Assembly: GCA_902779355.1 (NCBI GenBank) | Contig: CACZBF010000014.1 | Location: 1-64,000, forward strand | DNA length: 64,000 nt | Direction of reading: 5' to 3' | Source: an uncultured Lachnospiraceae bacterium | GTDB lineage: Bacteria > Bacillota > Clostridia > Lachnospirales > Lachnospiraceae | In this document: positions 32,209-48,308 of the stretch, in pieces | How the letters are laid out: every line of letters begins with the position of its first letter | Position numbering within the stretch: the stretch's first letter is position 1 | The notes under the pieces: model-generated | Told to the model about the DNA's origin: nothing | The model's database searches: none | Seen by the model: the letters and a program-made list of their open reading frames with translations, nothing else | Made by a program: the position numbers and the translations under genes

Positions 32209-33375
32209 TCACCCGAACAATCCAAAAGCGCTCAGCACATTTTCCATCGCCTGCTGCAGTTTCCTGTCGCCGGTGGCGTCACGAACCGTGATCTCAAGCT
32301 TTTCACCGCAGATCACGGCATACAGCATCAACGGGAATAAACGGATGCCTTCTTTGATCTCCATGACGTGCGGGGCGATCTCGTCGGGCACAAGGAATTT
32401 GCCGAGGTAGCTCACTACCATGGAATCCGAACCTGCCATCTTCTGGATCATCTGATAAAAACGCGTCTGATCCGTTTCCAGGATCAGATCCCGCCACTGA
32501 TTTAACTGGTAAATGGTGTCTTCCTTCGTGTTTTGCGTCCCCATCTGCTCTGCGATCGCAGTCAGAAGTTCTTCTGTCTTTTCTTCCTGTAAGAGTGTCG
32601 GAGACAGCTCCGCACGCAGGTTCACCAGACTCGAATTCTGGAACGTATTCGGCGTTTCCAGCGCAGCTCTCGCATTTACGGGGATCCGCACGGAGATCAT
32701 GTCCGCATTCTCCGGATAGGCTTCCTGCACGGCGCGTGCGGCAATTGCCGTCAAAAGTACCTGGGGTGAGCAATGCAGCGATTTGTAAAGCTTCTGGAAA
32801 GCCTCTGCGGAGGCGTGGTACTGGAGATTCTCGTCTTCAAACGGCATTTCTGCTTCGGGTCTGGAAAAAACCGTCGCCGGCGCTGCCTGTCCTTCTGCCC
32901 CATCTGCTTCCGGCCAGCGCTCTGCCAGAGGATCTTTATTGAAATCCGGTGCCGTCGCGCCGTTGTAAAGCGTTTTATCATTTCCGGCATAGAAATCCAG
33001 CACGGCTCTGACAAACCAGAAAATCCCGTTGCCATCGGTGAGGCAATGGCTCTGCATAAATGTCACCGTACTCCCGATCACACAAACCGCTGTCAGAAGT
33101 CCTTGATTCTCTTCTTCGTCCAATTTCTCCGGAATATGGTCGAGCACTTTTAGTGTCCCCGGATGCTGCACATGTCCATACAGCCGCCCCTCTTTTTTCT
33201 CCAGAGAGTACATCACATACGGGCAGGCTTCGCAGGCTCTGTCCACCGCCTTTTGCATGTTTGTAACGTCGATCGTCGCATCCATCGTGATCCGGATCCA
33301 CTGACTCTTTTTCGCATCATTGATCTGTCTTGGGTCTAACGCAAAGACAGATGCGCTGTAACTGATTTCTCCCAT
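32209..33375 (-). CDS. Condensation/alcohol-acyltransferase-like protein with HxxxDG motif
   Basis: 388 aa. Member of the CoA-dependent acyltransferase superfamily (alcohol acetyltransferase, WS/DGAT, NRPS condensation). The active-site motif HCLTDG is near residue 113, and the DFMISVRIPVNAR-like latch segment (MISVRIPVNARAALETPN) is near 235. No carrier-protein or adenylation domain, so it is a free-standing enzyme, probably cytoplasmic. The ATG at 33375 is chosen because AAGGAG lies eight bases before it; another ATG sits two codons earlier. Last gene of the operon, 12 bases after its paralogue. Substrates unknown. Confidence 0.75.
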   Translation of the reverse strand: MGEISYSASVFALDPRQINDAKKSQWIRITMDATIDVTNMQKAVDRACEACPYVMYSLEKKEGRLYGHVQHPGTLKVLDHIPEKLDEEENQGLLTAVCVIGSTVTFMQSHCLTDGNGIFWFVRAVLDFYAGNDKTLYNGATAPDFNKDPLAERWPEADGAEGQAAPATVFSRPEAEMPFEDENLQYHASAEAFQKLYKSLHCSPQVLLTAIAARAVQEAYPENADMISVRIPVNARAALETPNTFQNSSLVNLRAELSPTLLQEEKTEELLTAIAEQMGTQNTKEDTIYQLNQWRDLILETDQTRFYQMIQKMAGSDSMVVSYLGKFLVPDEIAPHVMEIKEGIRLFPLMLYAVICGEKLEITVRDATGDRKLQQAMENVLSAFGLFG

Positions 33376-33387
33376 TGTCATTTCTCC

Positions 33388-34662
33388 TTATGCCGGAAAG
33401 GCAAGTCCTACGTTGTTCTGCGGTACGGTTACATCCAATTCGACCGGAATGCCCGCATTCTCAATCGCCAAGCGAAATGCCTGCACGGTCGGATCATTTT
33501 CCTTTTTCTGGTGCAGGAAGCTCACTTCAAAGAGATCCTTCACGCCACAGATCGCGATCCCTCTCCCAAAGCTCGCGCCAGCCACGTTCAGCGTGGTCAG
33601 ATAGTTTTCCAGATCTCCGAGTTCGTATTTACCGAGGTAGCTCACAAGCACGCTCGGTACGAGGTCAAACAGGATCGAATGCTGCATATAGTACGCAGCT
33701 TTCCCCTTCAGATCCGGGATGCTTTCCATCTCGGTCAGGCTTGCCTTCTCTTTTTTCAGGATCTCGACCATGATCGCGGGATCCATCTGCTCCTTCATGA
33801 GCGTCCGCCCCTTCTGGCAAAGCTCTTCATCAGACAGCGCTGCCTCCTCTTTCGTCACGACCACATGCAAAAACCGCGTGATCAGTGACATCGTCTCCTG
33901 AAGGCCCAGACCTTCACTGGAATCGCAGGCAACACCGAGATTCAGCGCAACCGGTATTTCATCCATCTGTGCGATCAGGGAGCGATACAACAGCACGCCG
34001 AAATACGCAGCCGGCGACGTATGGTACGCTTTCACCTGCTTCATCACGTCCGCACTCTTCATGCGAAACGTCGTCTCATAGAGGCCGTCTCCCGCAGCAC
34101 CCGGAAGCATGGTCTCCAGCTGCGTAGGCAGTACAGGCTTGATGTCGGCCGGATACCCTTTCCAGGTACGCTCCAGATCCGGGAGATTATCAAACGGCTC
34201 TACAAAGTCCTCTCCCGCCCCCGGCGTCTGATCCCATCTGCGGATATTCTCGCATTTCAACGCCACGCCGTATTTCTTTTCCACATAGGCAACCAGACAG
34301 GACAAAGCCCAGCGCATCATGCCTCTGCCGGCGCTGATATTATGGCACATGTTAAAGCAGATCCGGTTTTCTTCATAATCCACAAGAATCATGTGGAAGT
34401 TTGTCTCCGGAGTCCCGTATTGCGGCTGCGGGTACGTCGTTGCCATGACCGGCACCGGAAGATCATTCGCCTGATAGACAAATTTGCCGTCTTCCACGAC
34501 GAGCTTTTTCATAATATAAGGATAGCGTATTTTCGTCGTCTCTCTGACTGCTTCGGTCAGAATCGCGCCGTCAATCGGGTCATTCATCACATACCTAAGC
34601 CGCATGGAGAGCGTTCCCGTCAGCATCATCGTGTATAAGAGTCTTGTGTTGTAACTGATCAC
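33388..34662 (-). CDS. Paralogous condensation/acyltransferase-like protein with degenerate HxxxAG motif
   Basis: 424 aa. Same fold as the next gene: both begin with an ISY segment followed by a matching strand pattern (TEAVRETTKIRYPYIMKKL versus QKAVDRACEACPYVMYSL). The active-site motif here is HNISAG (about residue 110), with Ala where family members have Asp, so catalysis may be lost or altered. The start is taken as GTG at 34662, since AAAGGAGG sits eight bases upstream and the GTG codon begins the ISYNTRLL homology. The ATG 12 codons earlier overlaps the phosphatase gene. It may act as the inactive half of a pair. Confidence 0.7.
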   Translation of the reverse strand: MISYNTRLLYTMMLTGTLSMRLRYVMNDPIDGAILTEAVRETTKIRYPYIMKKLVVEDGKFVYQANDLPVPVMATTYPQPQYGTPETNFHMILVDYEENRICFNMCHNISAGRGMMRWALSCLVAYVEKKYGVALKCENIRRWDQTPGAGEDFVEPFDNLPDLERTWKGYPADIKPVLPTQLETMLPGAAGDGLYETTFRMKSADVMKQVKAYHTSPAAYFGVLLYRSLIAQMDEIPVALNLGVACDSSEGLGLQETMSLITRFLHVVVTKEEAALSDEELCQKGRTLMKEQMDPAIMVEILKKEKASLTEMESIPDLKGKAAYYMQHSILFDLVPSVLVSYLGKYELGDLENYLTTLNVAGASFGRGIAICGVKDLFEVSFLHQKKENDPTVQAFRLAIENAGIPVELDVTVPQNNVGLAFPA

Positions 34663-34676
34663 TGTTCGATCCTCCT

Positions 34677-36461
34677 TTATCCGAAATACCTTACGCAAAG
34701 CATCGTAATATCGTCAAACTGCTCCGCTTCTTTCACAAACTCGTGGAGCCGATCTCTCATATGCGTAATGATCTCATCCGGCTCTGCGTCCGGAACTTCG
34801 CTCAAAGCTGCAAGCATCCGATCATTCCCGAAAAGTGCCAGACTTTCCGATGTGGATTCCACGACACCATCCGTATAGACAAAAAGTGCATCCCCCGGGC
34901 GCAGTTTTGTCTTCTGCTCCGTAAAGGTCAGGTTATCCAGCATCGCAAGCGCCATATCATGCGGCACGCGTTCCAGATCCCAGCCTTCTCCCGCCCGGTA
35001 GAACACAGGCTTCTCATGCCCGGCGTTCACGGAAATGAGTTCGCCTGTCGAGATCGTCAGCACGCCCACCCAGACCGTGACAAACATTTCCGCCGTATTT
35101 GCCTCATAAAGCTGACGGTTGACGTGCTCCATGGTCACTCCCGGAGACTTGATGCTGCACAGCATGCTCTTGATCAAGGTTTTTGCCGTCATCATGAACA
35201 GGGCTGCCGGTACGCCTTTATCCGAAACATCCGCGATCACAAGCGCCAGATGATCCGGATCTATGAAAAAGAAATCATAGAAATCGCCGCCCACCTCTTT
35301 TGCAGGTTCCATCGAGGCATAGAGAGAAAACTCGCTTCTGTCGGGATACGGCGGGAATTTACGCGGAAGCTGCCCCTCCTGGATTGATGCCGCCATGGAA
35401 AGCTCTGCCTTGGTACGCTCTCTCTCGATCGCCTCAGCCTCGATCTTCGAAAGATAGCCATCAATATCCTGCGTCAACGTCACGAAAGAAACTGCAAGAT
35501 CATCCAGCTCATCCTTTCGTTTCACCTTTAACCGTCTGTGCAAGCGTTCTGCAACTTCAGCACTGTCCTTATTTTGGTCATACACCTCCACCGTCCGTTC
35601 GATCTGGCGGATGCGGCGAATCACCCAAATACCTTGTACGATCAGAAGCAGGAAAAACCCAAAAGCAAAGACAATGCTCATCACAAACACGGTTCTGCGA
35701 ATGATATACGTCAATGTCGTGTGGAGAAGCTCACCCCACAGGAAGGTTACTTCCACATAACATAGCACCGTGCCGTCTGCTTCAACCGGCGTATATCTGA
35801 CCAAATACGGCTGCTTACTTTCAGGATCGTTGGCAACCGCATACAAAAGTCCATACTTTCTTGGTCCTTCGATTGCCTCTCTGAGCGCCCCTTTCTTCTT
35901 CGTCGTCAAGGGGTACGGCTTACCAAGCTGGTAGCATTCCCCCATGTCATCATCTGCTTCCATCCCTTGAAAAAGCAGGATTGCCTCATCATCCTGAAAG
36001 ACATCTATGCATCTGAAATTAAGCTTCACATAGGTCTGTTCCTGATAATCAAACTGTTCCGCGATCAGCTCATAGCAAAATTCCGCAAATTGCTTTTGCT
36101 CTTCAGGCGTCATCGCGCTGATATCATCTTCCGACATCGAAGTTGGCGAAGTATCATACACCCATTCGTGTTCTTTGAACCATGTCGATTGATAATCTTC
36201 CAGTCCATAGACGGGGAGTTCCATCTCCTTCCCATGGTCCTTCCAATACGGGACAAGCCATGATGCAGAATCAAACGAAAGAATGACATCCCGTCCGTAT
36301 CTCCCCATGGCGTCAAGTTCCGTCACTTTCGTATCTGCAATGACAAGTATAAATCCGAAGCACAAAACGTTCAAAGAAACTACAAATGCAGGAAGGAATA
36401 CACCGAGAAAGAGCAAAATAAACCGCCTAAGGATACGGTGGTTTTTTCTCCGGGCTTTCAT
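34677..36461 (-). CDS. Membrane-anchored SpoIIE/PP2C-type serine phosphatase
   Basis: 594 aa. Membrane helix (about 11-40), extracytoplasmic sensor-like domain (about 45-250), second helix (about 255-280), a HAMP-like linker with coiled coil, and a C-terminal SpoIIE-type PPM phosphatase (about 375-594). The metal-binding aspartates are present in GGDFYDFF, VIADVSDKG, FVYTDGVVES and FDDITML. Such enzymes remove phosphate from Ser on STAS-domain switch proteins; a STAS protein is encoded in the same operon. Its ATG overlaps the tyrosine phosphatase stop by 4 bp. Tandem paralogue of the protein at 37213-39069. Confidence 0.88.
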   Translation of the reverse strand: MKARRKNHRILRRFILLFLGVFLPAFVVSLNVLCFGFILVIADTKVTELDAMGRYGRDVILSFDSASWLVPYWKDHGKEMELPVYGLEDYQSTWFKEHEWVYDTSPTSMSEDDISAMTPEEQKQFAEFCYELIAEQFDYQEQTYVKLNFRCIDVFQDDEAILLFQGMEADDDMGECYQLGKPYPLTTKKKGALREAIEGPRKYGLLYAVANDPESKQPYLVRYTPVEADGTVLCYVEVTFLWGELLHTTLTYIIRRTVFVMSIVFAFGFFLLLIVQGIWVIRRIRQIERTVEVYDQNKDSAEVAERLHRRLKVKRKDELDDLAVSFVTLTQDIDGYLSKIEAEAIERERTKAELSMAASIQEGQLPRKFPPYPDRSEFSLYASMEPAKEVGGDFYDFFFIDPDHLALVIADVSDKGVPAALFMMTAKTLIKSMLCSIKSPGVTMEHVNRQLYEANTAEMFVTVWVGVLTISTGELISVNAGHEKPVFYRAGEGWDLERVPHDMALAMLDNLTFTEQKTKLRPGDALFVYTDGVVESTSESLALFGNDRMLAALSEVPDAEPDEIITHMRDRLHEFVKEAEQFDDITMLCVRYFG

Positions 36462-37207
36462 CGTCTCAAAAGCGAGGCGCGTAAACGATCCGCCTGCTCC
36501 TCACCAAAGCCTCGTTCTTTCATGATATGGCTGAAATGATTTGTATGCATCCAGTCAAGAAGCGCTTCCATCGTCTCCGCCTTCGAAGCAGTCGCAAGGT
36601 TCATCTTCTCCGGTGGAATCTCTGCCTTCATGGATTCCGGCAGGGAATCGATCCGCGCCTGGATCACCTTGGCGTTGTAGATTTCCGTCACGCTGTAGTC
36701 CGCGATGATCTCTTCATCAGAAACGCCGCATAGATACAAAACCGCAGCCGCCAAAATCCCCGTGCGATCCTTTCCGGCTGTACAGAAGAAATCCACGCCG
36801 CCTTCCTCCAGAAAATCTGTCAGGTGAAGCAGAATCTCCGCCATCTCATCAAGAGAATTCTGCAGCATCACAGCATAATCGAGGCTCAAACTGTCCAGAA
36901 ACATCCGGGCCGCTTCCTCCGGGTCCTCGATGCTGGCATCCTCCTTCAAAAACGGGCAATGATGGTAGGTGATGTTCTCCGGCGCCTGCACCGGGTTTTC
37001 CTTTGCTTCATAGGTGCTGCGGAGATCCATGATATTACGGATATTCAACGCACGGAACGTATCCCACTCCGCATCTTCCAGCGCATCCGGGCAATCGCTC
37101 CGAAACAGCTTCCCCCAAATGATCATGGCCTGATCCTTGGTCTCATATCCGCCAAGATCCCTGAAATTATGCAGATGCGACAATGCTCTTCTTCGTACTG
37201 CAGCCAT
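36458..37207 (-). CDS. Protein-tyrosine/serine phosphatase of the dual-specificity (DSP) superfamily
   Basis: 249 aa. The CX5R active site is FCTAGKDRTG (Cys about residue 137), with the upstream family signature HNFRDLGGYETKD near the N-terminus (about 14-26) and the general-acid-region CPFLKED. This is the Tyr_phosphatase_3 pattern of bacterial phosphotyrosine, phosphoserine or phosphoinositide phosphatases. The ATG at 37207 with AGGAGG nine bases before it is preferred to an upstream start inside the previous gene. It sits exactly between the two PP2C genes, which suggests a shared regulatory pathway. Substrate unknown. Confidence 0.88.
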   Translation of the reverse strand: MAAVRRRALSHLHNFRDLGGYETKDQAMIIWGKLFRSDCPDALEDAEWDTFRALNIRNIMDLRSTYEAKENPVQAPENITYHHCPFLKEDASIEDPEEAARMFLDSLSLDYAVMLQNSLDEMAEILLHLTDFLEEGGVDFFCTAGKDRTGILAAAVLYLCGVSDEEIIADYSVTEIYNAKVIQARIDSLPESMKAEIPPEKMNLATASKAETMEALLDWMHTNHFSHIMKERGFGEEQADRLRASLLRR

Positions 37208-37212
37208 ATGAT

Positions 37213-39069
37213 TTATTCCTCCTGTTCCTTGATCGCTCCATGATATATGATACAAAGCATCGTGATGTCGTCAAACTGTTCTGCCCCGTCAACAAACGAT
37301 GCGACTTCTTCTTTGACATGATGGATCAGCTCTTTCGGATCATTTGTCTTCGCCTGATCTAAGGCCTTTAGCATGCGTTCGTTCCCGAAACGTTTCCCGT
37401 CCCGGTCCGTGGCCTCCGTCACGCCGTCGGTATAAACAAACAGCATATCTCCTGCCAAAAGCTGCGTTGTGTGTTCTTCAAAGGTAAGATCCGGAAGGGA
37501 ACCCAGCGCCATATCATGAGGCGTTTTGTCAAGTGCAAATGCCTCACCCTTTTGCCGGATCGCCGGCTTCTCATGCCCGGCATTGATGCTGACGAGTTTC
37601 CCGGTGGCCAGTTCCAGTACCGCAACCCAGACTGTTACAAACATGCCTTCCGGGTTGGCTCTGTCAAGCTGACGATTCACATGCTCCATGGCAGTTTCCA
37701 GACGCACACCCGAGTATACCGCGCTTTGGATCAATGCCTTAGTCGTCATCATAAACAGCGCGGCCGGGACACCTTTGTCAGAGACATCCGCGATCACCAG
37801 CGCCAAATGACTGTCCTCGATCAAAAAGAAATCGTAAAAATCTCCTCCCACTTCCTTGGCCGGATCCATCATCGCAAAGATGTCAATTTCAGGGTGCTCC
37901 GGGAATGGCGGAAAAACTGCGGGAAGCTGTCCCGTCTGTATCCTGGTAGCCATCTGCATTTCCGCTGCAACCATCTGCCGCTCTATCGCATCTTTTTCAA
38001 TCTTCGCCACATAGCGGTCGATGTCCTCCGTCATCGCCACAACATCATCCGCCAGCTGTACCGCCTCCGTACGAACCTTCTTTTTCCGTATTTTCTCCAG
38101 TTTTTTCCTTGCCAGGGCGCTGTCTTTGGTGTTCGTATACTCCCGAACGCTTCCCGAAACCCTGATGATCGGCCGTACTGCAAGAAAATACATCATCACA
38201 AGCACCAGAATACCATCTGTGACAAGTGCTGCGATGTTCATGATCTCCACGCTGCGCAGATTATCCGCAAGGATGTGCACCTGTGCTTCGACCGGGATCT
38301 CCTCCATGATCACATACTCTGTCTGCTCCTCATCACCGAAATACTGAAAGACCCTGATCCATACGTCCTCCCCGTTTTGATAATAATTGAACCAGACGCC
38401 ATCCCCCAGAGAACCAATATCAAGATCCTGACCGAAAAACAACAGCGGCGTCAGATCTATCTCCTGCATTTCTCCCAAAGGATACCTCTTGGCTGTGCTG
38501 TCTTCGGGGAGTGTCTGGAAGATCACCTCCACCTGCGTGTCCTTTTCTGTACATTTCAGAACAGTGTCCAGCACGGAAGGAAAGGGGACTCGCTGAGACG
38601 CCAAGATCGATGCGATCTGTTCATAACAGAACTCTGCGAAAAGTTTCTGATCCTCTGCAGAAAACGTTTCAATCTGTTCCTCTGTGACGGACTCGACATC
38701 CACCAGAAAAAACTGTTTATGGTCTTCATACCATCTGCCGGAATAGTTGTTGTAGGCGCCGACGGGAAGATCCAGCTCGTCCACATGCTCCGTCCAGTAG
38801 GAAAGAAGCCACGAATGCGCCTTGTATTTCATCAGGACATCCTCTGTGTAACGTCCCAACCCGCACAGTTCCACAGCTACCGTTTCAAAATAGAAACGCA
38901 AAAAATACGTAAGCGTATTCGCAGCATTGCAGAATACTACGAGAGAAAAGAGAAATGTCAGCCAAAGCGCAACGATCAGAAGGATCCTAAAGCGCCTCGG
39001 CTTTTTCCTGGCGCCTCCACGCACACGCCCTCCCGCAGATTTCTGTTGCCCTTTTGTGATGTCCGACAA
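37213..39069 (-). CDS. Membrane-anchored SpoIIE/PP2C-type serine phosphatase
   Basis: 618 aa. Basic N-terminus, membrane helix (about 28-50), extracytoplasmic domain (about 52-275), second helix (about 278-297), coiled coil, and a PPM phosphatase domain (about 395-610). The metal-binding motifs are GGDFYDFF, VIADVSDKG, FVYTDGVTEA and FDDITML. The sensor region is only loosely similar to that of the paralogue at 34677-36461, while the phosphatase halves are close. The two may therefore answer different signals but share a target. The start is TTG (39067-39069) directly after the stop of the preceding gene, with GAGGTG upstream; no nearby ATG fits. Confidence 0.87.
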   Translation of the reverse strand: MSDITKGQQKSAGGRVRGGARKKPRRFRILLIVALWLTFLFSLVVFCNAANTLTYFLRFYFETVAVELCGLGRYTEDVLMKYKAHSWLLSYWTEHVDELDLPVGAYNNYSGRWYEDHKQFFLVDVESVTEEQIETFSAEDQKLFAEFCYEQIASILASQRVPFPSVLDTVLKCTEKDTQVEVIFQTLPEDSTAKRYPLGEMQEIDLTPLLFFGQDLDIGSLGDGVWFNYYQNGEDVWIRVFQYFGDEEQTEYVIMEEIPVEAQVHILADNLRSVEIMNIAALVTDGILVLVMMYFLAVRPIIRVSGSVREYTNTKDSALARKKLEKIRKKKVRTEAVQLADDVVAMTEDIDRYVAKIEKDAIERQMVAAEMQMATRIQTGQLPAVFPPFPEHPEIDIFAMMDPAKEVGGDFYDFFLIEDSHLALVIADVSDKGVPAALFMMTTKALIQSAVYSGVRLETAMEHVNRQLDRANPEGMFVTVWVAVLELATGKLVSINAGHEKPAIRQKGEAFALDKTPHDMALGSLPDLTFEEHTTQLLAGDMLFVYTDGVTEATDRDGKRFGNERMLKALDQAKTNDPKELIHHVKEEVASFVDGAEQFDDITMLCIIYHGAIKEQEE

Positions 39070-40479
39070 TCACTTCACCTCTTTGTTTTGCGCAAAGCAC
39101 CACATCCGACGAAAACCCTTTTCGGAAAGGGATTTCGTCATGACGATCCCGCCGCATTGGCCGGAATACATAAACGACTCGCACCGCGAAAGCAGGTACA
39201 ATGCGTAAAAATAGTTCGCCGTGGAGTCTTCCAGAAACTGATCATATTCCTCTTCGCTGGCATGGCGTTTTCTGTCCAGCTCGCTGATCGTCGTCACCTG
39301 CTCCTTTTGAAAATCCGTGATGCCGTATCGTTCCTGCGATACCGCCCGAATCTTTCCGGGGAAAGCGGCAAGCATTTTTTCCAAAATATCCCGATCCTCG
39401 GTCGCGAGGAAGATGCCGTCGTAATTGCCCTCCTCCATCCATTCCCGGATCTTCGGCAGAGCCGATTCCACAGTGACGGGCGCTGACGCTCCGCTCATGC
39501 CGGAAGCGATATAATCCGATCCGCGCAGCAAAATTCCAAGCCACCGTTTTTCTCCGAGCACACTGTCTCCGTACTCCTGCATTTCCGAAAGAAACGTCGG
39601 ATTCAGCGAAGAAGCGTCAAAATCGTTGCCGGAGCTGTAACGAAGCATCTTGGTAAACAACAGCCCGTAATAGTTGGTGATATAGATCGTATTGGATGGG
39701 TTCGCATCCTGCGGCGTCATACGAACGCTGAAATACTTTTCGATGATGTGATCCGCATAGCGCGGGCTGCCGGGACAAAGCGTAACCTGAATGCCGTATC
39801 GCTTCAAAAACGTTGCGGCTCTCGCATGGATCGTCAGGATGCTGCCGATGCCTTCGCTCTTCGCCACCAGGATCTCGGCATATTTCACCTGTTCCATCGG
39901 TAGATCCGTCAGCCACTGCAGCACAAAGACATGGTGAAACAGCGCAACGGGATCCATCGTAAAGAAATCACAGATAAACGAGGAAGGATGAAACCGGTTG
40001 ATCACCCGCAGCGTCGTCTTCTCTTCCACGGGCGGGACATCCTCCGACACCGTGATCCTTTTCTCCTCCGGAAAAAACCAGCGGATCCTCTCATCCTTCC
40101 ATTGAATCGGGAGGTCTGTATATTGAAGCAGCACGCCGGTCAGCACGACCGTGTATTCACTCGCCTCCTCAAACCAGACCTTTGTAAATCCCTCTAAAAT
40201 GTCAAAGCAGAGGCGATCTTTGTCATGCTCATCATAGAGGAGATACGGTGGGAATAACGGATCTTCATGAAACAACGGCGAATCCGGATAAGACTCCGAC
40301 GCTTCCGCCCAAGCCTGATTTTCCACATACTCCAGATCGTAATCAGATCCCGCAGGATTCTTGACATGAAAGCGTTTCTCGCCGCGCAAAACCGCGTCGA
40401 GCGCCTCATGAAACAGCATCTCTCCCAGCGTTAATGTCCTGTGATTTCGTTCCTTGTCATATTCCCTGAATTGGAGCAT
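39070..40479 (-). CDS. Putative glycosyltransferase of the fucosyltransferase (NodZ/FUT8/O-FucT) superfamily
   Basis: 469 aa, soluble. The N-terminal 200 residues are unlike anything I recognise. The C-terminal part has features of GT-B fucosyltransferase-like enzymes: LGILLRGSDY (about 310-319, the peptide corresponding to the R-x-x-D donor-binding motif), GIFLATEDRDILEKM (about 352-366), and ALYLLSRCESFMYSGQCGG (about 425-443). I infer a sugar transfer role with modest confidence. It is followed directly, with no spacer, by the TTG start of a PP2C gene, and preceded by the ATP-grasp gene at three bases' distance. Confidence 0.55.
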   Translation of the reverse strand: MLQFREYDKERNHRTLTLGEMLFHEALDAVLRGEKRFHVKNPAGSDYDLEYVENQAWAEASESYPDSPLFHEDPLFPPYLLYDEHDKDRLCFDILEGFTKVWFEEASEYTVVLTGVLLQYTDLPIQWKDERIRWFFPEEKRITVSEDVPPVEEKTTLRVINRFHPSSFICDFFTMDPVALFHHVFVLQWLTDLPMEQVKYAEILVAKSEGIGSILTIHARAATFLKRYGIQVTLCPGSPRYADHIIEKYFSVRMTPQDANPSNTIYITNYYGLLFTKMLRYSSGNDFDASSLNPTFLSEMQEYGDSVLGEKRWLGILLRGSDYIASGMSGASAPVTVESALPKIREWMEEGNYDGIFLATEDRDILEKMLAAFPGKIRAVSQERYGITDFQKEQVTTISELDRKRHASEEEYDQFLEDSTANYFYALYLLSRCESFMYSGQCGGIVMTKSLSEKGFRRMWCFAQNKEVK

Positions 40480-40482
40480 CGA

Positions 40483-41829
40483 TCATCCTTCCTTTTCACG
40501 CAGTGCTTTTACAAGGTCCGCCGGGATCTGCTCCGGATATTTCTGCTGTAACGCCGCAAAGCCATCCAGCAATTCGGTAAGGCTCTTGTAGCCACCTGTC
40601 ACCGCATCGTTGAAAAAGTACGGATCCTTCCCGGGCAGACGCACTTCATACTGGATCACACTGCACATCGACGGTTCCGCTGCAATTTTGGTCAGCGTTT
40701 CCATATCAATCTTCGGCATCTTAAACTGGCAGGCAAAGGAGAGATTCTTTGTGTCGTTCAGGTCCACAGCGCCTTTCTCCACCTGCTCCACATACACATC
40801 ATAAGGAAGTCTGTTTTGGGAAGCCGTGATCAGCGTCGTGAGACCGGACCAGCGGTTGTTGATCTCAAGGATCAGCCATTCGCCCTTCACCAGCACGAGA
40901 TCGACCTCCATGATGCCGGAAAACTCCATGATCTTGGCCATCCGCTTCAGTTCCGCGCGGACCTCCTCTACTTTCAGCTTCTCATCGAGGATCGGTCCGT
41001 ATTTCAACGTCGTCGCGCCAAGCGGATCGTTCAACTCGCCTTTGACCGTATTAAAAATGCGATATGGCGGCGATACAACGTAATCTCCATTGCTGCCGTG
41101 GACTTCCGCGCCGTACTCTTCACCGTCCAGGAACTCCTCGATGATCACATCCTCGACCAGTTCATCGGAAAGCAGATAATTTTTCGCGTCTTCAAAATCT
41201 TTTGCAATGTGGATCCCCATCGAAGAAGACCCAGTCGTACTCTTGATCACGACCGGCATCGGAAGTTTGGAGATCTCGTACAAAATGTACTCCTGATATA
41301 CATTTCCGGTGGAAACGGCACTGAGCTTCTGCGTCGTAAACATCTCATAATGGAGATAGAGCGCATGCGGGATCCGGAACCCGTTTTTCTGCAGCACCTG
41401 ATGCGTCCGCCATTTATCAAAGCAATCCAGCGCGGTGTCCGCAGAATAGCAGATCGTCTCAATCCCTCTCCGCCGTAATTCTTCAGCAATCGCCGCATCA
41501 CGGATCCCGTTCCAGTCATATCCGCTGACAGGCCCCGGCATCGCCACCGCGATATCCGGCTTCAGATTTGTCACGGCATCGGCAAATTCGTCCAATTTTG
41601 CTTCCATTGGCAAAATCTCAAGATGGATCTTCTCCGGCTTCTGCGCAAGCTCTCCCTCGTTGACATCCAAAAAATACCGGCCGTTCAGCTGCACCACAAG
41701 CGTGATGTCAAGATCCGGATGGCGGAGTGCCATCTCATCCCATTGTGCTGCCCATTTCGGGAAAACGGTGCAATTGGAACTCTTGTCCCGGTGTTTGCTG
41801 TTACTGGAAAATAATACAACTTTTTTCAT
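40483..41829 (-). CDS. ATP-grasp ligase
   Basis: 448 aa. N-terminal Rossmann-like domain (1-130), then an ATP-grasp fold. ATP-binding strand PMPVVIKSTTGSSSMGIHIA (about 210-229), adenine contact VIIEEFLDGEEYGAE (about 247-261), and metal-binding ILEINNRWSG (about 330-339, the usual ExN triad). Such enzymes join a carboxylate to an amine or similar nucleophile via an acyl-phosphate. The C-terminal 90 residues may close over the substrate. It resembles the general L-amino-acid-ligase/carnosine-synthase type rather than D-Ala-D-Ala ligase, but substrates cannot be named. AAGGAG lies upstream of the ATG. Confidence 0.85.
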   Translation of the reverse strand: MKKVVLFSSNSKHRDKSSNCTVFPKWAAQWDEMALRHPDLDITLVVQLNGRYFLDVNEGELAQKPEKIHLEILPMEAKLDEFADAVTNLKPDIAVAMPGPVSGYDWNGIRDAAIAEELRRRGIETICYSADTALDCFDKWRTHQVLQKNGFRIPHALYLHYEMFTTQKLSAVSTGNVYQEYILYEISKLPMPVVIKSTTGSSSMGIHIAKDFEDAKNYLLSDELVEDVIIEEFLDGEEYGAEVHGSNGDYVVSPPYRIFNTVKGELNDPLGATTLKYGPILDEKLKVEEVRAELKRMAKIMEFSGIMEVDLVLVKGEWLILEINNRWSGLTTLITASQNRLPYDVYVEQVEKGAVDLNDTKNLSFACQFKMPKIDMETLTKIAAEPSMCSVIQYEVRLPGKDPYFFNDAVTGGYKSLTELLDGFAALQQKYPEQIPADLVKALREKEG

Positions 41830-41847
41830 CTCGTCTCCTTCGGCTTC

Positions 41848-43041
41848 TTACCAATCCACTGCCCCGATCAGTTCGTCGATCTTAGGCAGGAAATTTTGTT
41901 TTGCGTCATCAATGCTGGCCTGAATGATCTCCGGTGCCGCGCCGCGTCCGAATACCGGCGCAAGCGCCACCTTGAGTTTGGAGAAAATACAGATCTGCTC
42001 TTCGATGCGGTCCCGTTCTTCCTTTGTTTTGTCTCCGAAATACTGATCAATCAACTTCCGCCAGGTCTTGGTGATCAGTTCCGCCGGCATCTTGGTGTGG
42101 AATTCCGCATACTCAGGGCTGAGTTTCACAAGATTCACCTGTGTCGCTGCTGTGGCAAGGAAATCAAAGATCGGATGGCCGATACTCATATCACCCATAT
42201 CGATCAGGATCAGATCCCCGTTCTGCCACATGACGTTGTTCGGGTGATAATCCCCGTGGATCAGCGTCTTCCGATCCGGAACAGACGCCACAAGGTCATG
42301 CAGCTTTTGCAGTTCTGCCTCGCTGTAATAGTCTTTGCAAGCGTTGATGGAATCATAGTAAATGTCCTTGATCGAACCGAATGCGGTCGGATCTCCCTCG
42401 GTTTCGTGGATCTTTTTATATAGGTGAATATATTGATCCGTATTCTTTTCGTAAGTGTCCGGGTTGTTTTTCAGAACCTGAGACAGCGGATCTGCGTCAA
42501 TAAGCTCAAACACGATCCCGTAGCGATCCTCATCCACCACGACCACGGTATAAGAAATTGCCGTCGGAATGCCATCCAGCAACGCCTGCTGTGCAAGATT
42601 CCTCTCCCTGTCGATGTCTTCCAACGGGGTACTCTTTTGGAAAACCTTGACGATATTTTCTTTGTCCATGCGGAATACCTGGCCGTTCGCGCCCTGCCCG
42701 ATCATTTCGCACCCCTCGAGTGAGTAGTGCTTCATGGCTTTATGAGCTTCAAACATCTTGACAAATCCGGTATCTTCCAGAATCTCAAAAATATCGGAAG
42801 AAATCTGGAAGACCTTGACCTTCTCTTTTTCTTCCTTCGCGATCGTCAGCAGCATGCGAAGCCCCGCACTGGAGATGTATTCCAGCTTCTCAAAATCCAA
42901 AGTCAGCGTCCCCTGCGGGTGATCTGCCCTGATCTGACGCAGTTCCTTTTCACAATCGGGTGCGTTGTCTCTGGAGATCCTGCCGCTGAATCCTACCACG
43001 ACGTTGGTTTTTCCGCTTTCCTTCAATTGAATTTCGTTCAT
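41848..43041 (-). CDS. STAS domain fused to aminoglycoside-phosphotransferase-like kinase
   Basis: 397 aa. Residues 1-100 are a STAS (anti-anti-sigma) domain. The phospho-acceptor loop is EYISSAGLRML, with Ser58 the residue usually phosphorylated. Residues about 108-390 are an APH/choline-kinase-like fold: glycine loop GQGANGQVFRMD, Lys in NIVKVF, catalytic HGDYHPNN (about 267-274) and metal-binding LIDMGD. STAS domains are classic substrates of SpoIIE-type PP2Cs, two of which are encoded downstream. No RsbW-like kinase is visible here. The kinase half may phosphorylate a small molecule, a protein, or the STAS half. Central gene for interpreting the operon. Confidence 0.88.
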   Translation of the reverse strand: MNEIQLKESGKTNVVVGFSGRISRDNAPDCEKELRQIRADHPQGTLTLDFEKLEYISSAGLRMLLTIAKEEKEKVKVFQISSDIFEILEDTGFVKMFEAHKAMKHYSLEGCEMIGQGANGQVFRMDKENIVKVFQKSTPLEDIDRERNLAQQALLDGIPTAISYTVVVVDEDRYGIVFELIDADPLSQVLKNNPDTYEKNTDQYIHLYKKIHETEGDPTAFGSIKDIYYDSINACKDYYSEAELQKLHDLVASVPDRKTLIHGDYHPNNVMWQNGDLILIDMGDMSIGHPIFDFLATAATQVNLVKLSPEYAEFHTKMPAELITKTWRKLIDQYFGDKTKEERDRIEEQICIFSKLKVALAPVFGRGAAPEIIQASIDDAKQNFLPKIDELIGAVDW

Positions 43042-43065
43042 CGCTTTCCTCCTTGCCTTTCATCT

Positions 43066-44817
43066 TTAAGTGCTTGTATAAAGTTTGTAGTAAGCGCCCT
43101 TCTTTGCCATCAGTTCCTCATGATTACCGCTTTCCAAAATCCGCCCGTGATCCAGCACCAGAATGCAGTCGCTGTTTTTGATCGTAGACAGGCGATGTGC
43201 AATCACAAAGGACGTGCGCCCCTCCATCAGATGATCCATGCCTTCCTGAATCAGCCGCTCTGTCCTGGGATCCACAGAGCTTGTTGCCTCATCCAGGATC
43301 AAAACCGGTGCGTCGCTTGCCACTGCGCGGGCAATATTGAGAAGCTGCCGCTGGCCTTCCGCGAGCGTATCCGCATCATGCGTCAACACGGTTTCATATC
43401 CTTCCGGCAGACGCTCAATGAAATCTGATGCCCTGGCATTCTCCGCTGCACGTTTGCAGTCCTCATCCGAAAGAGACGGATTGCCGTAACGAATATTGTC
43501 GAGGATCGTCCCGGTGAACATATGCGTATCCTGCATCACAAGCCCGATCATTTTACGCAGTTCTTCTTTTTTGTATTGCTGTACCGAAATCCCGTCAATC
43601 AGGATCTCGCCCTGCTCGATCTCATAAAACCGATTTAGCAGGTTTGTGATCGTCGTCTTCCCGGAGCCTGTCGTCCCGACGATCGCAATCTTCTGCCCCG
43701 GCTCCGCCGTCAGTGTCACATCATGAAGGACGGGCGTGCCCGGTACATAGGAAAAGTCGACGTGCTTGCATTCGATGCGACCTTCCGGTCGCTTGCCGTT
43801 TAGGGTGACCGTCCCTTGATCTTCCTCAGGCTCTTCATCGATCATCGCAAAGATCCTCTTTGCGCCGGCAAGAGCGGTCACACAGGAATAGAGCTGTCCG
43901 GATGCGAGGACGACCGGGACATTCATCGTTTTTGCCAGTGACAGGAACGCGATCGTTTTACCGATTGTCATGCCGCCCCAGCCGTTGATGACGCAGACTG
44001 CGCAAAGCACTGCAAAAGGCAGATAAAAGATCAGGTTTCCTGCCTGCATATTCAACGCCGAGATCAATCCCGTGTATTTCACCGCCTGATACGCAGACTT
44101 CTGAAGAGATGCATTCCGCTCCTGAAATTCTTCCTTACAGGTTTCCTCGCGGTGGAATACCTTGACCACCTTCTGCCCGCTCATGATCTCTTCCACATAG
44201 CTGTTCAGGTTGCCAAGCCGCTCCTGCTGCGCTGAATAATGGCCTCTTGCAGACATGATCACCTTCATACTGAGCGCCGTCACACCGACGAGCAGCACAA
44301 GGCCAAGAAGTGAAAGCGGTACGTTCAAGGAAAACAGCGCAAGGATCATCGCAACCGCCGTTACGATCGCGGAAAACAGATACGGCAATCCCTGACTCAG
44401 CATCAGGCGGAGCGCGTCAATGTCATTCGTATAGACTGACATCACTTCTCCTCTGGTGTGCGTATCAAAGTAGCGCAGCGGAAGCCGCTCCATTTTCGAA
44501 AACAGCTCGTTACGAAGGCTGTACATAATATCATGGGAAAGCCTGGCTGCCGCAAAGCCCTGGATCAGTGTTACGATTGCCCCCAGCAAAAATACCGCCG
44601 TCAATCCGAGCAGTGCCAGCGCAAGTCTCTGGAAACCGGGCGTTTTATCGACCATGGTAATGAGCGGTGTAATATAGTCGTCCACGAGGGAGGACAAAAA
44701 CCAGTACGACACCACCGACGTGATTGCCGCGAGCACCACGCAGACCATCAGCCCGATCAGGAGTCCTTTTCGTCTGGCGGTGATGTATTTCAGGAGTCTG
44801 AATAAAGTATCTTTCAT
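43066..44817 (-). CDS. ABC exporter subunit, catalytically complete half (pair 1)
   Basis: 583 aa. Six-helix exporter membrane domain (to about 320) fused to an ATPase domain. Walker A GTTGSGKT, signature LAEGQRQLLNIARA (LAEGQ in place of LSGGQ), and Walker B ILDEATSSVD with the catalytic Glu, followed by the H-loop VIAHRLST. Partner of the gene at 44814-46538, with which its ATG overlaps by 4 bp. Together they should form a heterodimeric exporter of the BmrCD/TM287-288 type. The start at 44817 is chosen over a longer frame. Substrate unknown; it may be the product of the downstream operon. Confidence 0.92.
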   Translation of the reverse strand: MKDTLFRLLKYITARRKGLLIGLMVCVVLAAITSVVSYWFLSSLVDDYITPLITMVDKTPGFQRLALALLGLTAVFLLGAIVTLIQGFAAARLSHDIMYSLRNELFSKMERLPLRYFDTHTRGEVMSVYTNDIDALRLMLSQGLPYLFSAIVTAVAMILALFSLNVPLSLLGLVLLVGVTALSMKVIMSARGHYSAQQERLGNLNSYVEEIMSGQKVVKVFHREETCKEEFQERNASLQKSAYQAVKYTGLISALNMQAGNLIFYLPFAVLCAVCVINGWGGMTIGKTIAFLSLAKTMNVPVVLASGQLYSCVTALAGAKRIFAMIDEEPEEDQGTVTLNGKRPEGRIECKHVDFSYVPGTPVLHDVTLTAEPGQKIAIVGTTGSGKTTITNLLNRFYEIEQGEILIDGISVQQYKKEELRKMIGLVMQDTHMFTGTILDNIRYGNPSLSDEDCKRAAENARASDFIERLPEGYETVLTHDADTLAEGQRQLLNIARAVASDAPVLILDEATSSVDPRTERLIQEGMDHLMEGRTSFVIAHRLSTIKNSDCILVLDHGRILESGNHEELMAKKGAYYKLYTST

Positions 44818-46538
44818 GCCGACTCCTTTCCTGCAACACCGCAAAGGTCGCGGTAGATCGCATTTGTCTGTATCAGTGCCTCATGGGTATCAAACCCGTC
44901 CACTCTGCCCTTATCCAGGATCAGGATCCGGTCGGCATCCTGAATGGAGCCCACACGCTGTGTGATGATGAGCTTCGTCATCTCAGGCATTTCGTTCCGC
45001 AAAGATGCTCTGATCGTCGACTCCGTCTCGGTATCGAGCGCCGACAGCGCATCGTCCAGGATCAATATCTTCGGCTTCCGGATCAAGGCTCTGGCAAGGC
45101 AAAGTCTCTGCCTTTGCCCACCGGACAGGTTCGCGCCGCCCTGCTCAATGACGGCCTCATACTGCCCTTCCTTTTCTTTGATGAAGCCGTCGGCACAAGC
45201 CATGCGGCATGCCGCCTCACATTCCTCCAGCGTCGCATCGGGCTTGCCCCAGCGAAGGTTCTCTAAGATCGTGCCGGAAAACAGCACGTTTTTCTGCAAT
45301 ACCACAGCAATATGATCGGAAAGCGTCTCCAACGAGTATTTTTTGACATCCACGCCGCCGATCGTCACGGTCCCCTCTGTCGCATCATAGAGACGGCTGA
45401 CGAGGTTGATGAACGACGTCTTGGAGGAGCCGGTCGCACCGATGATCCCGATCATCTCGCCGGAACGGATGGAAAGGTCGATATCCTCGAGCACGTTCTT
45501 GCCCTGCCCCTGTCCGTAACGGAAAGAAACATGGGAGAAATTGATCGCATCGCCCGTCATTTCAGTCACGGGGTTCTCATCTTCCACAAGCGTCGGTTCT
45601 TCCGCAAGCACCTCTTTCACACGCTTGATGGATGCAAAACTCGACGATACCTGGACAAAACTTAACACGAGCGTGGAAATATAGGTCATGATCTGAAATG
45701 CATAATTGATGAACCCGGCCAGATCACCGGTCGTCATGTCGCCGACACTGATGTATTTCGCGCCAATCCAGCTGATCCCGATAAAGCAGAACTCCAGCGC
45801 CAGCATCATCACCGGATTATTGAACGCCTGAATCCGTTCCACCTTAATAAAGCCCTTGCGCACCGCGGATGCCGGAACATCGAATTCCTCGCATTCCGTC
45901 TTTTCCTTCGCAAAGGATTTTACGATCCGGATGCCCGTCACGTTTTCCTGCACTTTGCCATTCAGCTTGTCATAGTCCTGATACACCTTCTGGTACATCG
46001 GGATCGTTTTTTTAATGATCAAGGTGAGAAAAACCGCAATGATGGCCACGCCGATCAAAAGCACAAGACTGAGCTTTTTATTCAGCGTTGCGGTCAGATA
46101 CAACGCATAGATCACAGACACCGGCGTCTTGAAAAAGCTGGTGAGGATCGTCTGTGCCATGTTCTGGATGTTGGTAACATCCGTCATGGTACGGGTCACA
46201 AGGCTGGAAACGCCGAATTTATCAAGATTTGCAAAAGAATAGGTCTGGACCTTGCCAAAAACCGCCTGCCGTAAATTTGCGGCAAGGCCGGTCGAAGCCT
46301 TGGCAGACTGCAGATAGCCGAGGATCGCAAAGATCAGCGTACCAACGGAAAGGACGAGGATAAAAGCGCCCCACTTCCAGACGGCGTCCATATTGTTTGC
46401 GGAAATCCCGTCATCAATGATATGCGTCATCATCATCGGGATCTCTGTTTCCAGGACACCACTTAAGATCATGAAGATGGGCGCAAGCAGAAATGCGCCC
46501 CTGTATTGCTTTATCTCCCTCAGTATCAAATCCTTCAA
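44814..46538 (-). CDS. ABC exporter subunit with degenerate ATPase site (pair 1)
   Basis: 574 aa. Membrane domain (to about 310) then ATPase domain. Walker A reads GATGSSKT, with Ser replacing the glycine before Lys. The signature LSGGQRQRLCLARA is canonical. Walker B ends ILDDALSALD, with Asp instead of the catalytic Glu, and the switch histidine is replaced in IITQRVGS. These are the marks of the non-catalytic half of a heterodimeric exporter. First gene of the run after pyk, 51 bp from its stop, with no terminator seen between. Confidence 0.92.
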   Translation of the reverse strand: MKDLILREIKQYRGAFLLAPIFMILSGVLETEIPMMMTHIIDDGISANNMDAVWKWGAFILVLSVGTLIFAILGYLQSAKASTGLAANLRQAVFGKVQTYSFANLDKFGVSSLVTRTMTDVTNIQNMAQTILTSFFKTPVSVIYALYLTATLNKKLSLVLLIGVAIIAVFLTLIIKKTIPMYQKVYQDYDKLNGKVQENVTGIRIVKSFAKEKTECEEFDVPASAVRKGFIKVERIQAFNNPVMMLALEFCFIGISWIGAKYISVGDMTTGDLAGFINYAFQIMTYISTLVLSFVQVSSSFASIKRVKEVLAEEPTLVEDENPVTEMTGDAINFSHVSFRYGQGQGKNVLEDIDLSIRSGEMIGIIGATGSSKTSFINLVSRLYDATEGTVTIGGVDVKKYSLETLSDHIAVVLQKNVLFSGTILENLRWGKPDATLEECEAACRMACADGFIKEKEGQYEAVIEQGGANLSGGQRQRLCLARALIRKPKILILDDALSALDTETESTIRASLRNEMPEMTKLIITQRVGSIQDADRILILDKGRVDGFDTHEALIQTNAIYRDLCGVAGKESA

Positions 46539-48032: not shown

Positions 48033-48308
48033 GGAGTCAAAAGCGTTCTTCCTATCGTCAATTTGCGCATAAAACTCCGCTCACTGTAATCGGCGTCAAA
48101 ATTCTCTAGTCATTTGCGTACAGTTTTCTCTCCGTACGCAACCGGTCGCAACACGCCATCCTGGCGTGATGCTCCCTGTCTGCGCCATCCATAGCCCAGA
48201 CTTGCTGGTTACAAAGCAAATGCCAAGAGAATTTAGTCACCTCATAATGTTCGCTTTGTTTTATGTGCAAATTTCCGTATCAACACTATTTGTAGCGCTT
48301 TTGACTCC
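48033..48308. repeat. Large imperfect palindrome, candidate structured RNA or small mobile element
   Basis: It occupies nearly all of the 325-bp gap between the DUF308 gene and pyk. The outer arms 48033-48045 and 48296-48308 are perfect 13-bp complements. Further inside, 48060-48075 pairs with 48258-48273 (one G-U) and 48099-48117 with 48216-48234 (two mismatches). Local hairpins occur at 48115-48121/48134-48140 and 48152-48158/48162-48168. The pairing order is fully nested apart from competing inner hairpins. No ORF of note. No flanking target duplication is evident. Confidence 0.7.

Follow-up and report, generated by a model that had tools for sequence, protein, structure and literature searches.

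The ten minus-strand genes at 32209..46538 of the window (the whole 64,000-nucleotide stretch of DNA analysed, from an uncultured Lachnospiraceae bacterium) belong to a conserved cluster that may assemble, glycosylate and export a small amino-acid-derived conjugate, with PP2C phosphatases predicted to switch a STAS-kinase and not a sigma factor. We hold this reading as a whole at a little below even chances. There is a strong case that the ten genes are one functional unit and a good case that the cluster performs small-molecule assembly and export; that a PP2C-STAS switch acts on the fused kinase is a reasonable prediction. A first-pass annotation had proposed a signal-gated system making and secreting a small conjugate. 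The conserved unit, the joining enzymes, the glycosyltransferase fold, the exporter and an intact STAS phospho-site beside PP2Cs were all found, and the control of the STAS protein by the PP2Cs and the product itself remain predictions.

All ten open reading frames were present on the minus strand at the coordinates of the first-pass annotation, whose overlaps or gaps of at most about 25 bases agreed with spacings, in transcription order, of -31, 24, 18, 3, 0, -43, -4, -22 and 6 bases (range -43 to 24). The overlaps of -31, -43 and -22 bases are produced by TTG starts and would be shortened by later ones. The operon opens with ABC1 (44814..46538) and ABC2 (43066..44844), the two halves of an ABC exporter, followed by a STAS domain fused to an APH-type kinase (41848..43041; PF01740 and PF01636), the ATP-grasp ligase GRASP (40483..41829) and the fucosyltransferase-fold enzyme FUT (39070..40479). 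Two receptor-type SpoIIE-family PP2C phosphatases, PP2Ca (37213..39069) and PP2Cb (34677..36461), are encoded on either side of PTP (36458..37255), a C-x5-R phosphatase of the Y_phosphatase3 family (PF13350, E 3e-50; motif CTAGKDR), and the condensation/CAT-type proteins C2 (33388..34698) and C1 (32209..33381) come last. ABC1 starts 51 bases past the stop of a gene that we take, from reading its sequence, to encode pyruvate kinase (pyk), therefore read-through from this gene is possible. A hairpin with a T run at 32028-32008 lies about 180 bases past the last stop of the operon and may be part of the leader of the next gene. A promoter scan returned 9 sites against a shuffle mean of 13.9, and a terminator scan returned 25 sites, above the shuffles (mean 14.9, sd 3.9), an excess that could not be matched to the gene boundaries of the operon. 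A TwoAYGGAY RNA (RF01731) was located 5' of the pyruvate kinase gene (window positions 48085-48248, minus strand) with 92.9 bits at a gathering score of 43; for this RNA nothing scored above gathering in the related loci L082 and L088.

The conservation of the cluster was analysed through FUT. A protein search returned 183 FUT homologues (120 among the matches listed), and an alignment scan of genome contigs gave 114 confirmed places, the best 80 of which were analysed as loci. According to their titles, these loci come from Lachnospiraceae and genera related to them, from Selenomonadaceae, Veillonellaceae and Erysipelotrichaceae, and from Eubacteriales, Clostridiales or Bacillota without closer placement. 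All open reading frames of the 80 loci were scanned with family profiles, and a family was counted when it lay in the same-strand run around FUT. With profiles partly built from the counted loci, whose members match by construction, and with related species that are not independent, STAS was found in 26/80 of the runs (best 80 of 114 loci), APH in 23/80, PP2C in 22/80 and ABC in 21/80. On the same basis, condensation domains occurred in 42 of the 80 runs, A domains in 18, PTP in 16 and the window-type ATP-grasp in 15, while a second ATP-grasp, MATE and HATPase were each present in 14. The run of L088 is split by a spurious 97-residue reading frame, which leaves its ABC and condensation genes outside these counts, although the comparison of gene orders in the clade includes them. 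The domains were concentrated inside the FUT runs (711 kb) compared with outside (545 kb), at 26 against 1 for PP2C, 32 against 4 for STAS, 27 against 0 for APH, 62 against 3 for condensation and 23 against 0 for A domains; the figures were 18 against 5 for HATPase, 36 against 11 for ABC and 15 against 6 for MATE. In 23 of the 80 loci (best 80 of 114), some of them on short contigs, there was no switch part and no condensation domain, which counts against the association, and the idea that every FUT homologue lies in such a cluster was rejected.

In a FUT tree of 79 rows calculated by a quick method, the window falls in a starred clade of 19 rows. Eight of its 18 clade relatives (L073, L074, L079, L081, L082, L084, L088 and L096) carry on the same strand the full core set of seven families, namely both halves of the ABC exporter, the STAS-APH fusion, ATP-grasp, FUT, PP2C and one or more condensation domains. 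PTP accompanies this set in seven of the eight, as does the second ATP-grasp. Subsets were found in nine relatives cut by a contig end (L072, L075, L076, L077, L078, L080, L085, L086 and L087). The contig of L083 is uncut, and of the profiled families its run holds PP2C and FUT only, which counts against the preferred reading; a STAS gene lies upstream on the opposite strand. At least four gene orders occur among the eight full-set relatives, and this retention of content under changing order suggests selection on the gene set. APH accompanies FUT in four distinct clades of this tree. In the same-genus locus L070, on a cut contig, C2, C1, ABC1, ABC2, STAS-APH and ATP-grasp are consecutive. The genes thus mostly stay together in relatives, and the conserved co-occurrence suggested earlier as a check is borne out by the core set in the clade, its gene orders and the in-run enrichment.

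Both ABC halves consist of a membrane and an ATPase domain (PF00664 and PF00005). The translation of ABC1 contains the signature LSGGQ and a Walker B of LILDDALS, with DD replacing DE, and that of ABC2 contains the Walker B LILDEATS and the signature LAEGQ. We read ABC1 as having a canonical signature with a degenerate Walker B, and ABC2 as having the reverse. By motifs and Pfam, the pair fits the heterodimeric ABC exporters, whose two half-transporters have asymmetric ATP sites, and it would serve as the exporter of the product.

GRASP matched PF02655 and PF07478, with D-Ala-D-Ala ligase and sugar-transfer-associated models among its matches. A protein search, with scoring limited to the 7996 candidates that had the most words in common, found 80 homologues. 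The family is scarce in the order, with 5 of 392 genomes at E <= 1e-30 including the window's own, and in two of these five the gene is a fragment with stops. A search of three further genomes of the genus found the gene in each, at 72-92% identity. A distant paralogue (about 32% identity) is encoded on contig C6 of the own genome, and among plasmids the protein matched 13 Apilactobacillus records, with 26% identity across 60% of the query. The second ATP-grasp of the sister clusters is encoded in the window genome away from the operon (69% identity), where it adjoins two family-2 glycosyltransferases and one acyltransferase; its separation from the operon counts against the preferred reading. 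The ATP-grasp ligase of the operon would couple carboxyl and amine building blocks.

Pfam gave zero matches for FUT and C2, and for C1 one sub-threshold match to an unrelated model. The description of FUT as fucosyltransferase-like held, since its residues ~192-469 have a GT-B fold of the FUT8/NodZ type; residues 1-190 lie outside this assignment. Identity to FUT8, NodZ and POFUT is about 12-16%, and FUT differs from them in its N-terminal part without an assigned fold and in its linkage or fusion to condensation-type domains. The FUT segment LLRGSDY aligns with HLRRKDF of POFUT2, the conserved Arg motif of the donor site, in an alignment that is not significant by itself, and R319 and D322 are invariant in 29/29 aligned sequences. 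Sequence searches with FUT, C2, a FUT profile and a C1/C2 profile against solved structures gave nothing significant; POFUT2 was listed for FUT at E 0.74, and this lack of a significant match for FUT counts against the preferred reading. The FUT-fold enzyme would attach a sugar from a GDP-sugar, and a GDP-deoxysugar donor is possible because the window genome encodes a GDP-mannose 4,6-dehydratase (contig C6). The two condensation-like acyltransferases named by the first-pass annotation were recovered by fold for C1, which is a member of the condensation/CAT superfamily, and by alignment with C1 homologues for C2, a putative condensation/CAT-type protein. C1 retains HxxxDG, with Ser replacing the first His of HHxxxDG; C2 retains the His and lacks the Asp of HxxxDG, which counts against the preferred reading. 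C1, perhaps with C2, would move an acyl or aminoacyl group.

In the sister species of L084, the C1 homologue makes up the N-terminal region of a C-A-PCP protein of 959 residues (Pfam for A and PCP, a profile for C), which places the operon next to NRPS-type pathways. A homologue in L087 shares 131 bits with C1, and FUT in L128 and L138 has A-PCP-C proteins among its neighbours, with condensation matches by Pfam. Fusions of FUT to a condensation-type domain occur in 13/80 loci (best 80 of 114). In these 13 (L098, L118, L121, L123-L127, L129, L133-L135 and L140) the condensation-type domain is C-terminal, and most lack the other cluster genes. Two observations count against the preferred reading: Pfam found neither an A nor a PCP domain among the ten genes, and the window genome has just two PP-binding matches, neither of which lies by eye in an NRPS. 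From reading, we take one to lie beside fatty-acid genes and the other to be a small carrier next to an FkbH-like gene. Because no NRPS carrier was found in the window genome, the operon resembles a reduced or carrier-independent form of such pathways. Rumen Bacillota are rich in NRPS clusters, with 5,346 clusters in 8,160 rumen genomes given in the accessible part of PMC8241843, which does not mention partner-switch-type control of them. Condensation-type domains are shared with those clusters and the relatives' proteins are A-PCP-C or C-A-PCP, whereas the condensation-type proteins of the operon are free, without A or PCP domains. Clusters of this kind would be expected to escape NRPS-module searches.

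The same genes could also modify the envelope: FUT, C1/C2 and the ATP-grasp would decorate a lipid- or wall-linked glycan, the MsbA-like ABC pair would flip it, and the switch would tune the surface without any free metabolite. The best-scoring models for both ABC halves are indeed MsbA-type, yet far under their cut-offs, and the D-Ala-D-Ala ligase and sugar-transfer-associated matches of GRASP point in this direction, as do the glycosyltransferases and acyltransferase beside the unlinked second ATP-grasp. However, relatives link FUT to A/PCP domains (A in 18/80 runs, best 80 of 114 loci) and to MATE exporters, and a soluble product fits these better. We consider surface modification unlikely, though a serious contender.

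For the switch predicted in the small-conjugate reading, both PP2Cs matched PF07228 (E 5e-46 and 2.5e-49). Hydrophobic stretches lie at about 26-53 and 273-306 in PP2Ca and at about 9-46 and 252-284 in PP2Cb, which also has a HAMP-like segment (PF00672 slightly below cut-off). The proposed STAS phospho-site, Ser58, was located in the motif YISSAGLR and is invariant in 20/20 aligned homologues, as are H262, D264, N269 and D281 of the APH kinase. The invariance of the phospho-serine and the kinase residues in these alignments suggests that the STAS and APH halves are likely both functional. The PP2C receptors would sense an outside signal and dephosphorylate Ser58, and this would turn the attached kinase, hence the pathway output, up or down. 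Ser58 might be rephosphorylated by a HATPase_c_2 protein encoded elsewhere or by the fused kinase itself. The claim that sigma factor, anti-sigma factor and RsbW kinase are missing stands for the ten genes, among which Pfam found no sigma factor and no HATPase_c_2 kinase, the latter being undetected on the window's contig as well; it does not extend to the genome, where HATPase_c_2 was matched 15 times at E <= 0.001 and 13 of these matches exceed the curated cut-off. The lack of an RsbW-type kinase among the ten genes counts against the preferred reading.

The own genome (2.97 Mb) contains 25 SpoIIE-domain matches, one of them partial, which weighs against assigning the window PP2Cs to this STAS and thus against the preferred reading. 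The sensor region of the window PP2Cs had a match in 1/22 PP2C open reading frames of other own-genome stretches (L056:9581-11401). The two other STAS-APH proteins of the genome have PP2C genes within 5 kb (L052 and L054). Among the STAS-bearing FUT runs (best 80 of 114 loci), PP2C was present in 15/26, HATPase in 11/26 and at least one of them in 21/26. In L128, L130 and L131, PP2C, a free HATPase protein and STAS adjoin FUT, and for L128 the HATPase and STAS are also supported by Pfam. L145:4380-12427 and L147:6282-12519 both contain three STAS-APH genes, grouped around a single FUT and a single PTP.

In the proposed pathway, the APH kinase would phosphorylate an intermediate or partner, and the C-x5-R phosphatase would undo this at or before export. 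These two enzymes could alternatively provide self-protection by a phospho-prodrug, with APH keeping a toxic product inactive inside, the phosphatase freeing it at export, the STAS domain just docking the kinase and the PP2Cs serving other STAS proteins. Kinase/phosphatase pairs of this sort occur in antibiotic pathways, and APH and PTP are found together in 14/80 FUT runs (best 80 of 114 loci), 12 of them in the window clade and the others in L145 and L147. However, the STAS serines invariant in 20/20 homologues and the PP2C or HATPase neighbours in 21/26 STAS loci favour a regulated STAS, and we regard self-protection of this kind as quite improbable. A chance same-direction run of unrelated genes downstream of pyruvate kinase, a reading invited by the ABC1 start just behind the pyk stop and by the commonness of same-strand gene runs in Bacillota, was already disfavoured and is very improbable in view of the recurrence of the set in at least four gene orders and the in-run versus out-of-run counts. 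A sporulation role was rejected, since the SpoIIE and CotS models scored far under cut-off and the set accompanies biosynthetic genes.

Some related clusters do encode an RsbW-type kinase, either free-standing (by Pfam) or fused as a tail to a MATE exporter (for the most part by profile). MATE proteins with a HATPase tail by profile were found in 13/80 loci (best 80 of 114), on the opposite strand in L108. Among four cases scanned with Pfam, the tail lay above cut-off in L106 and below it in L141 and was missed in L128 and in L065 of the own genome; tails found by profile are therefore often divergent, as Pfam misses or under-scores several. The fetched stretches of the window genome encode eight such MATE proteins by profile, and 6/8 tails match PF13581 at E <= 0.001, five above the curated cut-off. 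Seven of the eight were seen in L062, L170, L172, L173, L174, L175 and L050. The other, one of the two that Pfam misses, lies in L065:7238-11251 (own contig C3:224237-228250), where PP2C, STAS and MATE form an overlapping run with an RsbW-like tail by profile only, possibly a whole partner switch assembled on a transporter. The E...N and RDD motifs are retained in many MATE tails and absent in some, which suggests that some tails may be binding platforms and not kinases. In the order, the tail profile matched 35/246 genomes at E <= 1e-10, the own genome included; among the 59 matches listed, 40 lay in frames of 570-645 residues, the size expected for MATE fusions, and are candidates for such fusions by their length. 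ABC-HATPase fusions in L099, L101 and L114 were rejected, being seen by our own profile only, with Pfam finding none in L099 and L101. A STAS gene followed by an ABC ATPase-HATPase_c_2 fusion (PF00005 and PF13581, 85 bits) was observed in L160:1486-2963. The stretch L050:9393-19866 (own contig C6) encodes CTP synthase, glutamine-synthetase-like, ANTAR and DUF3089 proteins, a phosphopantetheinyl transferase, a MATE with HATPase tail, the paralogous ATP-grasp (about 32%) and a dCache-HAMP PP2C, and it is possibly a second switch-controlled cluster.

Partner switching is the textbook route to sigma-factor release; other outputs are few, and several have targets that are not known. Like the Rsb and SpoIIA switches, the operon has SpoIIE-type PP2Cs and a STAS serine, but it lacks a HATPase_c_2 kinase and a sigma factor within its ten genes. 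Partner switches without a known sigma output include SypE/SypA of Vibrio fischeri and BtrUVW of Bordetella (PMC8256260, accessible part) and SiaABCD of Pseudomonas (PMC8457831, likewise). As far as these excerpts describe them, they share with the operon a PP2C phosphatase, a STAS with a conserved serine and a non-sigma output, which is predicted here. In contrast to them, the operon STAS is fused to an APH-type kinase in a biosynthesis and export cluster without an RsbW-type kinase, and its switching is a prediction. TciR, a REC-RsbW fusion, affects the NRPS pigment indigoidine in Vogesella, which lacks an RsbV homologue according to the accessible text of PMC12826045. On that text, TciR offers an earlier example of an NRPS pigment under RsbW-like control, and differs in being a two-component regulator with no exporter fusion. 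Searches of the open-licence literature, several of which combined many terms, found no description of this gene set or of fusions of STAS to APH or of MATE to HATPase.

More broadly, we suggest tentatively, as a somewhat unlikely possibility, that partner switching has been rewired from transcription to secretion in this gut lineage. STAS would sit on a biosynthetic kinase and RsbW-type domains on MATE exporters, with PP2Cs setting the phosphate, so that outside signals and exporter state would gate, without any sigma factor, how a family of NRPS-related conjugates is made and exported; the ten-gene operon would be a STAS-kinase variant without an RsbW-type domain in the cluster. The candidate switch target, the fused kinase, lies in the same protein as the STAS domain, and some relatives carry the switch kinase domain within an exporter. 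What a STAS switch does outside transcription could thus be tested directly, in isolates such as those of L088 and L096 (Lachnospiraceae AD3010 and AC3007, whose records have no MAG label).
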